From an uncultured Lachnospiraceae bacterium (lineage in GTDB: Bacteria; Bacillota; Clostridia; Lachnospirales; Lachnospiraceae): a stretch of 33,713 bases of DNA. Below the pieces are notes generated by a model, which did no database searches, had not been told where the DNA came from, and saw only the letters and a program-made list of their open reading frames with translations. Shown here piece by piece: positions 15,825 through 22,522 of this stretch. The stretch lies in the NCBI GenBank assembly GCA_947630085.1, contig CANRGP010000018.1, forward strand, positions 1-33,713. The letters are read 5' to 3'. A program made the translations under genes and the position numbers. Every line of letters begins with the position of its first letter. Position 1 is the stretch's first letter.

Positions 15825-15844
15825 AACGGTCCGGGAAAACCAAA

Positions 15845-15901
15845 GAGGGCGTTCCGGGCCGCGGCTTTCACAGTCCGCGGTCCGGAGCGCCCTCCGTTTT
15901 T
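15845..15901 (+). terminator. Strong intrinsic terminator, probably bidirectional
   Basis: A stem of about 20 bp (18 matched) runs from GAGGGCG to CGCCCTC around a 10-base loop, followed by CCGTTTTT on the plus strand. On the minus strand the same stem is followed by TTTGGTTTT. It can therefore end both spoVB and the opp operon, whose stops are convergent here. Confidence 0.9.
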
Positions 15902-15912
15902 CCTGCGTTCGC

Positions 15913-16863
15913 TCAGTTTCCGAGCTCCTTCCGGTATCCTTCCAGTTCTTTCCAGTTGGCAAGTACAAAATGTCCTTCCTCCGCCCGGCACCAGGACGGC
16001 TTATCCTCGCTGTAATCGTGGCAGGACGGATCATAGACCAGGAGCTTCTTATTGCGCTCCACGATAGGATCCGGCTGCGGAATAGCGGAAAGCAGCGCTT
16101 TGGTGTAGGGATGGAGCGGATGTGCAAAAAGCGTCTCGCTCTCGGCCAGCTCCACGATCTTTCCCTTATGGATCACGGCGATCCGGTCACAGATAAAGCG
16201 GACCACCGAAAGGTCATGGGCGATGAACAGATAGGTGAGGCCGTACTCCTTCTGCAGAGACGACAAAAGGTTCAGCACCTGCGCGCGGATGGAAACGTCC
16301 AGGGCCGATATGGGTTCATCGGCCACGATGAACTTGGGATTCAGGATCAGCGCCCTGGCAATCCCGATCCTCTGGCGCTGCCCGCCCGAAAATTCATGCG
16401 GAAACCGGCTTGAAAATTCCGTCAGAAGGCCCACGTCCAGAAGAGCCTTGTCCACCAGCTCGCGCCGCTCCTCCTCGCTCACATGGCGTCCCGGGGCATA
16501 AAGGCCCTCGGCCACGATATAGCCGACCTTTGCGCGCTCATTTAAGGAATCCATGGGATCCTGGAAGATCATCTGGACATCCCGGGTCACCTGGCGGTCA
16601 TCCGCCGTAGACAGACGGCCGGAGATGCGTTTTCCGTCGAGACGGATCTCACCGGAGGCCAGGGGATTGGCACGTATGATGGCACGGCCTATGGTGGTCT
16701 TTCCGGAACCGGATTCGCCTACCAGGCCGAACGTTTCGCCCTGATAAATATCAAACGAAACATCATCGACCGCCACAAACGGACGACGCTTTTTGCCGAA
16801 ATGGACGCTGATGTGATCCACCTCCAGCATCTTTTTTCGCGTATCAGCCGCTTTCTCAGCCAT
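15913..16863 (-). CDS. oppF: Oligopeptide ABC transporter ATP-binding protein OppF
   Basis: This cytoplasmic ATPase powers peptide import together with OppD. Walker A is [13 protein letters not shown], the signature is [15 protein letters not shown], Walker B is [14 protein letters not shown] and the switch histidine lies in [10 protein letters not shown]. The 316-residue length and C-terminal segment [15 protein letters not shown] match the Firmicutes OppF type. Its start overlaps the end of oppD by 8 bp. It is the last gene of oppABCDF and ends just before a strong terminator. Confidence 0.93.
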
Positions 16864-18037
16864 TGGAGATCACCTCCCCGCTCTTTTCCGGCTTATCGCC
16901 GAGTATCGGACGGCCGGTTTCCCCGGCCATATCCTCGTCCGTCAGATGCTGCGCGGCGCCAGTTGCCATCGCACTCTCCGCGGCGGCCTTCGCCACCAGA
17001 TCCTTTCCGCGCTCCCGGAGCGCCAGGATGTGTTCCGGCGGATCCGTCTTCGGCGCCCGCGGGTCCAGAAGCCAGGTCCGCGCACTGTGAGTGGTTGTGA
17101 CCGCAAACATCGGAGGCCGTTTTACATAGTCGATCTTCAGCGCTTTCGGGTTCCTGGGTGCAAATGCGTCGCCACGCACCTCCCGGAACAGGTTCGGGGG
17201 CGTCCCCTCGATGGAGTAAAGAGGCTCTCCTTTGACTCCCAGCTGGGGAAGGCTTGACAGAAGGGCCCAGGTATACGGATGGCGCGGGTCGTAAAAGACC
17301 TCGTCGCTGGTCCCGACCTCCACGATCTCGCCCGCGTACATGACCGCGATGCGGTCCGCCACATTGGCGACGACGCCTAGGTCGTGGGTGCTGTAGATCG
17401 TCGTCACATTATATTTCTTCTGCATCTGCCGGATCAGATTCAGGATCTGAGCCTGGATCGTCACGTCCAGAGCCGTCGTGGGCTCATCGCAGATCAGGAT
17501 CTCAGGGCGGCAGGCCATAGCAATGGCAATGACCACTCTCTGGCGCATCCCGCCGGAAAATTCATGGGGGTACTGCTTCGCGCGGCGCTGGGGATCGGAG
17601 ATCCCTACCTCCTCCAATATACCGTATACGGCCTTCCTCGCGTCGGCCCCTTTCAGCCCCTGGTGGAGCTTCACCGCCTCCTCGATCTGCCATCCCACGG
17701 TCTTGAGAGGGTTCAGGCTGGTCATCGGATCCTGAAGTACCATGGCGATCCTGCTTCCCCGGATGTTCTTCCAGTCCGCGTCCGTTTTCAGCAGGGTCAG
17801 GTCCTTTCCGTCATATTCGATGCTTCCGCTCTCCACATATCCGTTCCGGTCATTTAAGCCCATCAGGCACTTGACGAACACGCTCTTTCCGGAGCCGGAT
17901 TCCCCGACAATGGCCAGGCTCTCGCCCGGATATACATCCAGGGAGATGTCGCGAAGAGCGTGGAGCACCTGGCCCCGAAGAGTGAATTTAAAATTCAGGT
18001 CGCGGACGGAAAGCAGGGGCTCTGTATATTTTCTCAT
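16856..18037 (-). CDS. oppD: Oligopeptide ABC transporter ATP-binding protein OppD
   Basis: This second ATPase of the peptide importer has Walker [13 protein letters not shown], signature [14 protein letters not shown], Walker [15 protein letters not shown] and a C-terminal oligo_HPY region. In many OppD/DppD proteins that region has four cysteines for a 4Fe-4S cluster. Here the positions read [15 protein letters not shown] and later ARTWLLD, with no cysteine, so no cluster is expected. The C-terminus is long (393 residues) with an Ala/Glu-rich tail. It follows oppC by 15 bp. Confidence 0.93.
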
Positions 18038-18052
18038 CCCGTATGCCCTCCT

Positions 18053-19081
18053 TTATACATGATTCTTCGGATCGGCGGCATCCGCAAAGGAGTTGCCGAC
18101 AATGTACATGGAAATCGTAATGAGCGCCAGGACCGCCGTGGGGAACAGCAGCTGGTAGCGCAGGGATGCCTGGCTCATGAGGGCGCGGCCCGCCTGCACA
18201 AGGTTTCCCAGGGACGGGATATCCGTGGGGAGCCCGATGCCGATGTATGTGACGAACACCTCGTTGCCGATGGCGGACGGAACCGCCAGGGAGACCCGCA
18301 GGGCAATGACCGACACCAGATACGGAAGCAGGTTCCGGGTGATGATCCTGAACGTGCCGATCCCCAGGGTCCTGGACGCCAGGTTGTAATCGCGGTCGCG
18401 GATGATCACGATCTGGTTGCGGATGAAGCGTGCCATCCCCAGCCATCCGGTCAGGCAGAGCGCGAATATAATGGTCCCAACACCGGGTCTCATCACATAG
18501 GATACCAGGATCAGCACCAGCGTCTGGGGAACGTTGTCAAAGATATTGTAGATCTCCGTAAACAGTCCGTCCAGCTTCCTTACATATCCCCAGAGGGTTC
18601 CGATCAGGGCTCCGAACAGGGCCTCAAAGCAGGCGACGGCAAAGCCGATCCCCAGAGAAGTCCTGGTCCCTGCCCAGGTCCTTGCCCACAGGTCCTGCCC
18701 TATGGCATTCGTCCCGAACCAGAACTCTCCGTCCGGCAGACGGTTGATGTACTGCCTGCCGCTCACCGGATCGTTATAGATCGTCTTGGGATCGTGCTGT
18801 CCCGGCAGAAACGGCTGGATAAAAGTAAAGAGCAGAACGAAAACGATCACGCACAGGAAGAACACGGCCGTCTTGTTCTTAAAGAACGCGCGGAATGTCG
18901 CTCCCCAGTAAGAATAATTGGAATACCCGCCTCTCTCCGCCGACGCGCGGTCAAAATCAGCAGGGACAAACAGTTCGTCTTCGGGAAGGTCCCCGTATGC
19001 TCCCGCCGGATCCAGCTTCTCCTCCATATGCCTGGTCAGCGCCTCTTCGAGCTCCCGCTCCTTCATGCCTCGAAACGTCAT
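18053..19081 (-). CDS. oppC: Oligopeptide ABC transporter permease OppC
   Basis: This 342-residue inner-membrane subunit begins with a cytoplasmic segment of about 75 residues, then the first helix (FFLCVIVFVLLFTFIQPFL) and five more. The segment DPVSGRQYINRLPDGEFWFGTNAIGQDLWART is typical of OppC/DppC, and the BPD_transp_1 domain carries the EAA-like loop around ASRTLGIGTFRIITRNLLP. Its ATG overlaps the oppB stop by one base, so the two are translationally coupled. It pairs with OppB to form the translocation path. Confidence 0.93.
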   Translation of the reverse strand: MTFRGMKERELEEALTRHMEEKLDPAGAYGDLPEDELFVPADFDRASAERGGYSNYSYWGATFRAFFKNKTAVFFLCVIVFVLLFTFIQPFLPGQHDPKTIYNDPVSGRQYINRLPDGEFWFGTNAIGQDLWARTWAGTRTSLGIGFAVACFEALFGALIGTLWGYVRKLDGLFTEIYNIFDNVPQTLVLILVSYVMRPGVGTIIFALCLTGWLGMARFIRNQIVIIRDRDYNLASRTLGIGTFRIITRNLLPYLVSVIALRVSLAVPSAIGNEVFVTYIGIGLPTDIPSLGNLVQAGRALMSQASLRYQLLFPTAVLALITISMYIVGNSFADAADPKNHV

Positions 19082-20031
19082 CAGCGCGCACCTTCTTTCT
19101 TGACAAAACTGATGCGTGGGTCTGCCAGCGCCATTGCCAGATCGCCGAACAGAAGACCAAGCACCGATACCGCCGAATAGATCAGCACCAGGGCCTGGAC
19201 CATGGTGTTGTCCTGTCTCTTGATGACCTCGATCAGCAGGCCGCCCATCCCGGGAATCGAATACAGGCTTTCCACATACAGCGAACCCATGAGCGTCAGC
19301 AGGATCGAGTTGGGAATGTACTGGACCAGCGGCACCACCGCGTTGCGGAATATGTGTCTGCGGCTGATCTTTCCCGAGGAAACGCCCTTTGCCCGCGCCA
19401 GACGGATATAGTCCTTGTTTGCCTCATCCACCATATATCTGCGCAGCCACATGGCATAATATGCAATGTTTCCGATAGCCAGGGAAAACACCGGCAGGAT
19501 CCATGTCCGCGGATCGTTCTCTTTAAACAGCATGGATACTCCCAGAAGATTGCTTCCGTAAAGCTGGATAAGGAGATGGTAGACCGCCGACGGAACCGCC
19601 TGTACGATCACAATAATCACCGTTCCGAACCTGTCCCAGAACTTCAGCCGGGTTCGTGTGGAGCGGGCCATCAGGATGCCGAGGGACATCCCTGCCACAA
19701 GCGACACTCCGAGGCTGAGAAGCCCGAGCTTAATGGATACGGGGGCTTTGTCCGCCACGATCTTGGCGATGGGATACCCTTCACGGAACTTGTTCGAGGT
19801 CCCGAGGTCCCCCTGGAAAACCTGGCTCAGATAGTTCCAGATCTGGACGGGCATGGGCCGTGTCAGCCCCAGTCTCGTCAGTCCTGCCTGGATCTGGGCC
19901 TCCGTCAGCTTGTCCATATTGTTGAAATAGCCCTCGATGGGCATCTGCCGGAGCAGGATGAATACAATGCTTATAACGACCAGCAGGGTAAAGCACGCAT
20001 GAAGTACGCGCTTTATTATGTATTTTACCAA
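19081..20031 (-). CDS. oppB: Oligopeptide ABC transporter permease OppB
   Basis: This first permease of the peptide importer starts VKYIIKRVLHACFTLLVVISIVFILLRQMP, the typical OppB first helix. The EAA-like loop is DYIRLARAKGVSSGKISRRHIFRNAVVPL. The track ORF runs to 20286, but the added 85 residues cover an intergenic stem-loop region and lack a signal. A TTG at 20031 with AAGGAGG eight bases upstream gives 316 residues, the normal length. Two large stem-loops separate it from oppA. Confidence 0.9.
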   Translation of the reverse strand: MVKYIIKRVLHACFTLLVVISIVFILLRQMPIEGYFNNMDKLTEAQIQAGLTRLGLTRPMPVQIWNYLSQVFQGDLGTSNKFREGYPIAKIVADKAPVSIKLGLLSLGVSLVAGMSLGILMARSTRTRLKFWDRFGTVIIVIVQAVPSAVYHLLIQLYGSNLLGVSMLFKENDPRTWILPVFSLAIGNIAYYAMWLRRYMVDEANKDYIRLARAKGVSSGKISRRHIFRNAVVPLVQYIPNSILLTLMGSLYVESLYSIPGMGGLLIEVIKRQDNTMVQALVLIYSAVSVLGLLFGDLAMALADPRISFVKKEGAR

Positions 20032-20070
20032 TAGTAGATCCTCCTTCCCCCGGCTGTCCTGGCTCCGGGA

Positions 20071-20134
20071 TATACGGATTTGCCGGGTAACCCGTGCGGC
20101 GCGCGCTCCACAGGCGATCCGGCAAATCCATATG
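20071..20134 (-). other. Intercistronic stem-loop A, proximal to oppB
   Basis: GGATTTGCCGG pairs perfectly with CCGGCAAATCC around a 32-base GC-rich loop, and the stem extends through an ATA/TAT flank. It ends about 40 bases before the oppB start. No U-run follows, so full termination is unlikely. Confidence 0.7.
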
Positions 20135-20137
20135 GAC

Positions 20138-20199
20138 GGGGGCGTCCCAAAACATTTCGGCTGTTCTGTCACAGACGGCTTCTGTTTCGGGACACCCCG
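20138..20199 (-). other. Intercistronic stem-loop B, proximal to oppA
   Basis: The arms GGGGTGTCCCGAAACA and TGTTTTGGGACGCCCC (minus strand) pair over 16 bp with two G-U-compatible positions. The 28-base loop can itself pair GTCTGT with ACAGA. It lies about 30 bp after the oppA stop. Such structures often protect the upstream binding-protein message. Confidence 0.7.
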
Positions 20200-20230
20200 C
20201 GCAAAATCAATCTGCGGTTTCAGAAGAAGA

Positions 20231-22252
20231 TCAGTCGGCAGCGGAAGACGAGCGCTCCTCTTCCCACTTCTCGTATGCCTCCTCAAACTCCTCCATGCTC
20301 ATGGAAGTATCGTAAAGCTTCTGGTACTTATAGCGGTACTGAGACACGCCGAACGGCGAGTATTCGCCCTCAAGCGGATTCAGGTTGGAAATGCTGTAGG
20401 TGCTCCCCTGGGAAATGCTGTAGGGAACCACAATGGCATTTTCGATCAGCAGGGCCTCCGCCTTGGCAAAGGCGTTGTAGCGGTCAGTGTCGTTCTCATA
20501 GATCTCGGCCGCGCCCCGGATCTCCTCGCCGCCTTCCTCCTTCAGGCCCTTCTCGACGGCTGCCTTGGTCCCGTATACAAGCTCATACCACTGGGCAAAC
20601 AGGGCCTTCGTCTCCGGATCCTCGCTCTTGTCCCAGAAGCCGTAGCTGTTGTCCAGTCCGAACGGCTCGGTCCAGGTCTGCGGGTCTGCATAGTCGGCTC
20701 CCCAGTTCGTGCTCATGAACGCATATTTTCCGCTGCGGCGGACGGCAGTAAGGAATGAGGTTTCCGGTCCTGCCTCGATGATGATATCAATGAAATCCGT
20801 TCCCAGAACGTTCTCGATCTGCTGCTCCACAAGCTGGCACTCATCATCCATTCCGGAGGAGGTGGGGTTGTAGCTCATAAGGACCTTGATCGGGAACGTA
20901 ACTCCCTCGGCCTCCAGCTCCTCGCGGGCCTTGTCGCGGTAAGCCACAGCGGCGTCGGCGTCAAAGCTGTCCCCGTCGGTATAGGGCTTTAAAGGCTCAA
21001 ACTGGGTGTAATCCACTCCGTCTCCCAAAACGAAATCTGCCGGCGTAATGGTGTTGTTGATGTAGCGTTCCGGAGCAAACGGATCATGAGCCATAAATGC
21101 ACGGACGCGGTCCATGGACGCCATAACGGCCTTGCGGAAGTTCAGATTGTTGACCGCTTTTCTCCAGTTCTCCGGCTCATATATCTCGTCGAACTGCGGG
21201 TCAAAGTTGAAGGAATAAAAGTAGCTGTAGGAATTGTCGATGCGGCCCCCGTGGATCAGGCTGCCCGTCGTCTCATCGGCAAGCATACTGTCAAGCAGAT
21301 TGGTATCGACGGTGGCGTTGTCGATCTCGCCGTCCAGGTACATCTTCACCTCGATGCTGGCCGCCTCCGCGTTGTAGGTCTGGCGGATCTCGTCAATGTA
21401 TACGTTCCCGGCATCCCAGTAGGTCGGATTCTTGGTCAGGACCCTCTCCTGCTGCGGCTCATAAGAGGAAAGTATGTACGCGCCGCAATACAGAAGGCTC
21501 TCATTGTCCAGGCCGAACTGGCTCCCCTGTTCCTCAAGGAAGGGGCCGTACACCGGCATGAACGCCGTATATGCCAGGGCGCTCAGGAAGAAGGAGCAGG
21601 GCTGCTCCAGCGTGAACACCAACGTGGAATCGTCCACCGCCTTTACGCCGATGCTGTCCGGATCTACGGGATCCACCGGTTCAATGGGATTGCCCTCATC
21701 GTCCACGGCGTTCACATCGCCCTCCTCAAAACCGTATGTCTCACAGTCGAGAAGGTATGCGGTATAGTCATAATACGCGTTCGCGTTGACCACAACGGAG
21801 CCGTTGCTGTACATATACTGGTTGTCGGAAGCGTTGCGGGCATCATTGACATAATGTGCCGTAGATACCCAGTCGTTGGCCGTCACGTCGGCGACCTCAT
21901 TGCCGTCCTTGTCCACCCACTTGACGCCGGGGCGGATGTGGAACGTCCACTCCGTCATATCGTCGTTATGCTCCCAGCTCTCCGCAAGGGCCGGAAGCAG
22001 ATTGCCGTAGCGGTCATATTCCACAAGGTTGTCTACCACATTGGCTCCGATCGACCAGTTGTTGGTCAGACCTGTGGTCAGATAATTCAGCGTAGTCACC
22101 TCGCTGGCATACAGGGTCCGATATACTACCGCGTCGGCCGTATCGCTGTTCCCTCCCTCCTGCGGGGCCTGTCCCGAACCGCCGCAGGCAGTAGCGCTGA
22201 GCACCATCGCCCCTGCCAGAAGAAGCGCCGCCAGTCTCTTGTTCTTGCACAT
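20231..22252 (-). CDS. oppA: Oligopeptide-binding lipoprotein OppA
   Basis: This lipid-anchored extracellular receptor of the peptide importer is a family 5 solute-binding protein of 673 residues, somewhat longer than classical OppA. The signal peptide MCKNKRLAALLLAGAMVLS leads to a lipobox ending ATAC. Typical segments are YRTLYASEVTTLNYL, NLVEYDRYGNLLPALAESWE and WTFHIRPGVKWVDKDG. I chose the ATG at 22252, which has AAGGAGG nine bases upstream; the track start and the ATG at 22261 overlap or precede that site. It is first in oppABCDF, with a strong promoter and a leader of about 180 bases. Its substrate could be peptides or a related compound. Confidence 0.93.
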   Translation of the reverse strand: MCKNKRLAALLLAGAMVLSATACGGSGQAPQEGGNSDTADAVVYRTLYASEVTTLNYLTTGLTNNWSIGANVVDNLVEYDRYGNLLPALAESWEHNDDMTEWTFHIRPGVKWVDKDGNEVADVTANDWVSTAHYVNDARNASDNQYMYSNGSVVVNANAYYDYTAYLLDCETYGFEEGDVNAVDDEGNPIEPVDPVDPDSIGVKAVDDSTLVFTLEQPCSFFLSALAYTAFMPVYGPFLEEQGSQFGLDNESLLYCGAYILSSYEPQQERVLTKNPTYWDAGNVYIDEIRQTYNAEAASIEVKMYLDGEIDNATVDTNLLDSMLADETTGSLIHGGRIDNSYSYFYSFNFDPQFDEIYEPENWRKAVNNLNFRKAVMASMDRVRAFMAHDPFAPERYINNTITPADFVLGDGVDYTQFEPLKPYTDGDSFDADAAVAYRDKAREELEAEGVTFPIKVLMSYNPTSSGMDDECQLVEQQIENVLGTDFIDIIIEAGPETSFLTAVRRSGKYAFMSTNWGADYADPQTWTEPFGLDNSYGFWDKSEDPETKALFAQWYELVYGTKAAVEKGLKEEGGEEIRGAAEIYENDTDRYNAFAKAEALLIENAIVVPYSISQGSTYSISNLNPLEGEYSPFGVSQYRYKYQKLYDTSMSMEEFEEAYEKWEEERSSSAAD

Positions 22253-22438: not shown

Positions 22439-22467
22439 TTTATACCAGATTTCAGGCAATTTGTCAA
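22439..22467 (-). promoter_or_regulatory. Promoter of the opp operon
   Basis: TTGACA, an exact 17-bp spacer and TATAAA on the minus strand predict transcription near 22431. That leaves a leader of about 180 bases before oppA. The leader can pair GGATGC with GCATCC, but matches no riboswitch class I recognise. Confidence 0.8.
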
Positions 22468-22496: not shown

Positions 22497-22522
22497 GCGC
22501 CCGGCAGTGTTCTGCCGGGCGC
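22497..22522 (-). terminator. Terminator-like hairpin after yebC
   Basis: A perfect 11-bp stem GCGCCCGGCAG/CTGCCGGGCGC with a 4-base loop lies 16 bp after the yebC stop. On the minus strand it is followed by AGATTATTTTCC, a modest U-rich tail. It lies upstream of the opp promoter and would insulate it. Confidence 0.75.

Follow-up and report, generated by a model that had tools for sequence, protein, structure and literature searches.

Two adjoining stem-loops, which we call HP1 and HP2, are encoded between oppA and oppB in the window, the whole 33,713-nt stretch of DNA from an uncultured Lachnospiraceae bacterium that was analyzed here. The element that they form acts at the RNA level and is evolutionarily constrained, as seen in the covariation of HP2 and its bias toward the mRNA strand. 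We lean modestly toward the explanation that the tandem hairpins set the ratio of OppA to OppBCDF, chiefly by stabilizing oppA mRNA after cleavage. Stabilization after cleavage is the likeliest mechanism, with weak termination as its main rival.

The oppA-oppB gap and its hairpins

Profile searches and reading of the sequence identified an oppABCDF operon on the minus strand (Table 1). The N terminus of OppA is lipoprotein-like. The oppA gene starts with ATG at 22252, preceded by AAAAGGAGG, and oppB starts with TTG at 20028, with the ribosome site GGAAGGAGG immediately 5' of it. The genes are tightly spaced down to 15913, and the oppA-oppB gap is the sole long gap within the operon. A consensus scan detected no sigma-70-like promoter in this gap, and the idea of an internal promoter there was set aside on that basis. 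The putative, near-consensus oppA promoter was found by eye and is absent from the scanner's list, as the scanner required T at the last -10 position. It comes right after a terminator (GCGCCCGGCAGAACACTGCCGGGCGC AGATTATTTT, 22497-22522, minus strand) that lies 3' of a yebC-like gene.

Table 1. Features of the opp operon in the window
Feature	Positions	Strand	Description
oppA promoter (putative)	22439..22467	minus	TTGACA, 17 nt, TATAAA; inspection by eye
oppA	20231..22252	minus	family-5 solute-binding protein; PF00496, 186 bits
oppA-oppB intergenic region	20029..20230	minus	202 nt
HP1	20139..20198	minus	arms 20198-20183 with 20154-20139
HP2	20072..20133	minus	outer helix, 3x3 internal loop, inner helix
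oppB	19081..20028	minus	permease; PF00528; Opp3B/OppB are top NCBIfam relatives, below cut-off
oppC	18053..19081	minus	permease; profile matches
oppD	16856..18037	minus	ATPase; profile matches
oppF	15913..16863	minus	ATPase; profile matches
Operon-end terminator after oppF	15830..15903 (limits approximate)	minus	U-rich tail; sequence and terminator-type score

As RNA, HP1 has 16 pairs, two of them G-U, and folds at -36.1 kcal/mol (z -7.0) around a 28-nt loop in which any inner hairpin is weak at most. HP2, 43 nt upstream of the oppB start, folds at -38.4 kcal/mol (z -5.9). Its outer helix joins 20133-20119 to 20086-20072 in 15 pairs, one of them G-U, and the inner helix beyond the internal loop joins 20115-20109 to 20096-20090 in 7 pairs. 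The original prediction of two adjoining stem-loops between oppA and oppB is thus borne out on the mRNA strand: the 11-bp perfect stem that it described (GGATTTGCCGG/CCGGCAAATCC) is contained in the outer helix of HP2, and the further hairpin that it placed inside a loop is the inner helix of HP2. That the hairpins fill almost the whole gap was an overstatement, as they cover 127 of its 202 nt.

Folding of the gap on the mRNA strand, proposed earlier as a check, agreed with this picture. The 195-nt piece that was folded reached -99.5 kcal/mol, compared to -68.7 +/- 4.9 kcal/mol for shuffles (z -6.3), and 0 of 200 shuffles folded as well. The plus-strand fold was weaker (-83.9 kcal/mol, z -4.1), a difference explained by several pairs that can form as G-U on the mRNA strand only. 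At about -0.51 per nucleotide, the folding energy of this piece lies beyond the 1st percentile (-0.425) of a crudely called set of 78 same-strand gaps from this genome, while its z-score falls merely in the lower tail of that set (5th percentile -5.5). In the window fold, UCUUCUUCU, located after the oppA stop, also paired with the oppB ribosome site. This pairing was missing in the closest relatives on inspection and probably arose by chance.

Conservation of the hairpins in relatives

For 80 relatives of oppB, we gathered the gap upstream of each, along with genus-level loci. The genome's closest named relatives in the search were uncultured Lachnospiraceae assemblies of the "Lapin" (rabbit) series. 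The window's HP2 could be aligned with that of its closest relatives and of Gemmiger and Faecalibacterium. Covariation, the second check proposed, was strong for HP2 across the 12 distinct sequences tested: 94.1% of cells were paired, compared to 35-49% when the partner was slid by 1-3 columns, a measure that is favored by the structure having been derived from some of the aligned sequences. Both sides had changed in 11 of the 24 pairs; these double changes are less exposed to that circularity, and several are common to one clade and so are not independent events. None of 500 shuffles reached the HP2 covariation score, and RNAalifold recovered this helix, in which it counted ten compensatory pairs. 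The loop-proximal C-G, U-A, and G-C pairs of the inner helix are invariant, and length and sequence both vary freely in the apical loops. An HP2 covariance model gave the window 68.8 bits when run on the mRNA strand, compared to 49.1 bits on the other.

HP2 is also specific to this place. Among 26 genomes of the genus, strong matches to the HP2 model occurred in exactly the nine with a close oppB, at one place each, with most of these sequences, or identical ones, having been in the training alignment. One genome left out of that alignment (G021, locus L031) scored 68 bits, and a more distant, Gemmiger-labeled locus (L053) scored 36.5 bits. Across 291 genomes of the class, strict filters left zero matches beyond the window's own genome, indicating that the HP2 family is either narrow or under-sampled. 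We found no second DNA copy of the gap in its own genome (79% complete) and no copy above chance in 60 relatives. The gap had zero Rfam matches at the gathering score, and a permissive Rfam search gave only a chance-level match on the plus strand. Two weak HP2-model matches, L141:3193 among overlapping ORFs and one in L164 between converging genes (terminator-like), were taken as chance, given ORF contexts without oppB.

Strong hairpins extend far beyond HP2 itself. Counting the window's own, 69 of 77 homologous gaps fold at z < -3 (median -5.3). Many Oscillospiraceae relatives carry at least two strong hairpins of unrelated sequence in the same gap, including two families, A2 (CGGAGCC...) and A3 (GCGGAACC...), in which 93.8% and 95.4% of cells are paired and 5 and 9 pairs, respectively, have changed on both sides. 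A single hairpin is common in more distant relatives (among L096-L119). HP1 keeps its place in relatives, and its sequence cannot be aligned outside close clades. What has been kept over the long term is strong hairpins between oppA and oppB rather than any single sequence.

Several gaps differed in their architecture. In eight (L065, L067, L069, L072, L077, L078, L081, and L084), single mismatches interrupt the second hairpin at a fixed, nearly constant spacing, with U-U after 8 pairs and G-G after 6 more. Such mismatches might reduce the cutting of long helices by RNase III, but unbroken helices of at least 18 pairs in other relatives show that the pattern is not general. The gaps of L095 and L103 are unusually long (492 and 338 nt) and contain seven strong hairpins each, which look as if they had accumulated. 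In L061, L062, and L068, the gap is only 57 nt and lacks a strong hairpin, indicating that some lineages can do without the element. Within the window's own genome, several other binding-protein genes are followed by a strong hairpin (e.g., L121, L122, L145, L148, L150, and L154), based on rough gene calls.

OppB of the window's Lachnospiraceae clade is 78-80% identical to the Gemmiger-type OppB of another order (L046-L053), and its identity to the other Lachnospiraceae listed is lower (68-73%). These identities and the HP2 that the two groups have in common suggest that the operon may have been transferred along with its hairpins.

Candidate mechanisms: stabilization and termination

The mechanism we infer, from cleavage through stabilization to the resulting protein ratio, would run as follows. 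Transcription of the operon probably begins at the promoter upstream of oppA, and the long transcript would then be cut or decay from its oppBCDF part. The very stable HP1 and HP2 would block 3'-to-5' exonucleases, so that the oppA segment would outlast the rest. HP2 may additionally protect an oppBCDF segment at its 5' end, and a minor fraction of transcripts may end at HP1 or HP2. Consistent with stabilization are the fold and its strand bias, the covariation of HP2, the hairpins in homologous gaps and after other binding-protein genes of the genome, the separate Oscillospiraceae families, the U-poor tails described below, and a gap with no promoter-like site.

This arrangement has a counterpart in E. 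coli, where work attributed to Newbury in 1987 (cited in PMC4423207) reportedly found that hairpins between malE and malF left the upstream mRNA more stable. There, too, a binding-protein gene comes first and strong hairpins precede the permease gene. The malE-malF hairpins are repetitive REP sequences, whereas the element in the window is single-copy and specific to the oppA-oppB gap.

Precedents also come from the Clostridia. In eight cellulolytic species, stem-loops were predicted for 87.3% of the long gaps that follow a 5' binding-protein gene. Stem-loops at this position in clostridial ABC importers raise the binding-protein transcript over that of the translocator, and reporters showed that they reduce downstream expression (PMC9045158). 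The window shares this layout, with a 5' binding-protein gene followed on the same strand by a permease gene across a gap of >50 bp. Both of its hairpins fall below -10 kcal/mol, at -36.1 and -38.4, which puts them in the strongest part of the range reported there (-38.3 to -10.1 kcal/mol). Further similarities are the long stems, the low-U tails, the bacterial class, and the lack of sequence conservation between operons. However, only single stem-loops were described in that study, whereas the window has two in tandem, and HP2, unlike the published stem-loops, shows clade-wide sequence and pair covariation. In R. cellulolyticum cip-cel, transcripts are processed with stem-loop-dependent stability, and abundance tracks the stability of the stem-loop (PMC4423207); selective RNA processing and stabilization have likewise been predicted for operons that include ABC transporters (PMC8219983). 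Like these, the window has a stable stem-loop inside an operon, on the 3' side of the gene expected in excess, with function expected from its energy. Processing sites were mapped in cip-cel, whereas cleavage in the window is a prediction. The window element thus belongs to an already documented type and is distinguished by its tandem arrangement and conserved HP2 family.

The earlier proposal that the hairpins are a processing or stability element giving an excess of OppA is therefore upheld in part. The genes, covariation, strand bias, and published precedent all favor it, but the published clostridial cases depend at least in part on premature termination, and many relatives (e.g., Gemmiger) carry more terminator-like versions. 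Possible, though clearly less probable, is that HP1 and HP2 are partial intrinsic terminators, at one or both of which polymerase stops in many rounds, so that oppA mRNA would be abundant and full-length transcripts fewer. Ruminiclostridium binding-protein stem-loops, some followed by few U, do terminate, with efficiencies of 20.7-96.1% (PMC9045158). Termination was measured in those cases, whereas the window is known from sequence and sits at the low end of U content. HP1 is followed by CGUCCAUAU, with 3 U in nine bases, and the full HP2 stem by AUCCCGGAG (from 20071), with 1-2 U according to the stem end chosen, so neither is followed directly by a U-rich tract. Within the gap, the highest terminator-type score was -8.6, compared to +34.5 for the operon-end terminator, on a scale for which converging genes gave too noisy a calibration to be usable. 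Moreover, a three-U tail in R. cellulolyticum gave only 9-33% termination, and removing the U tail abolished it (PMC9045158). Based on these tails and scores, strong termination in the window is unlikely and weak, low-U termination is possible; the U-poor tails would instead favor stability.

The gaps of Gemmiger, Subdoligranulum, and Faecalibacterium (L046-L052) look different. There, AAAACCGC on the 5' side of HP1 pairs with GCGGUUUU on its 3' side (L049 has a shifted AAACCGC version), forming an extended, terminator-like HP1. In Gemmiger, UUUU lies at the base of this extended hairpin and terminator scores reach about +26 to +46, which argues for termination in these relatives. Because the 3' arm of the extended HP1 doubles as the 5' arm of HP2, the two pairings are mutually exclusive. 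Still, HP2 could not be a classical antiterminator in the Gemmiger gaps, as its 3' arm would be made after the UUUU. Termination and stabilization may therefore have been traded between lineages.

A bolder extension, which we consider rather improbable, is that HP2 represents an undescribed structured RNA family restricted to the oppA-oppB junctions of one Lachnospiraceae clade and of Gemmiger and Faecalibacterium, forming a two-outcome device with HP1. Here, UGCGGUUUU would either pair with the upstream AAAACCGCA, closing the extended HP1 terminator as seen in Gemmiger, or, on read-through, become the 5' arm of HP2 and protect the transcript. In the window, only the protective half of this device would remain, its terminator half having been lost.

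Poorer still are the prospects of a regulated element controlling oppBCDF, such as a riboswitch, a protein-binding site, or a small-RNA source. The same operon is under small-RNA control in Vibrio cholerae, where OppZ and Rho lower OppBCDF while OppA is not lowered (PMC7398697). This is the outcome proposed for the window, but OppZ is a trans-acting small RNA from the operon's 3' end that works through Rho-dependent termination, a different mechanism. The invariant loop-proximal pairs of HP2 would suit such an element, but the freely varying apical loops and zero Rfam matches would not, and the use of unrelated hairpin sequences at this position in other families speaks against a specific ligand. 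A riboswitch in particular found no support. Finally, a mobile, REP- or MITE-like palindromic repeat inserted between the genes, which the hairpins recall through their likeness to malE-malF, is highly improbable given the lack of a second copy in the 79% complete genome, the single strong place in each of the nine genomes with a close oppB, and G-U pairs that favor the mRNA strand.

Taken alone, stabilization of oppA mRNA by hairpins in the window would be ordinary, documented biology. How operons make many binding proteins and few channels is only partly understood. The oppA-oppB gaps form a natural series with the same place and task, in which hairpins have been swapped wholesale between families and U tails range from poor to strong. 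This series could be used to separate termination from stabilization.
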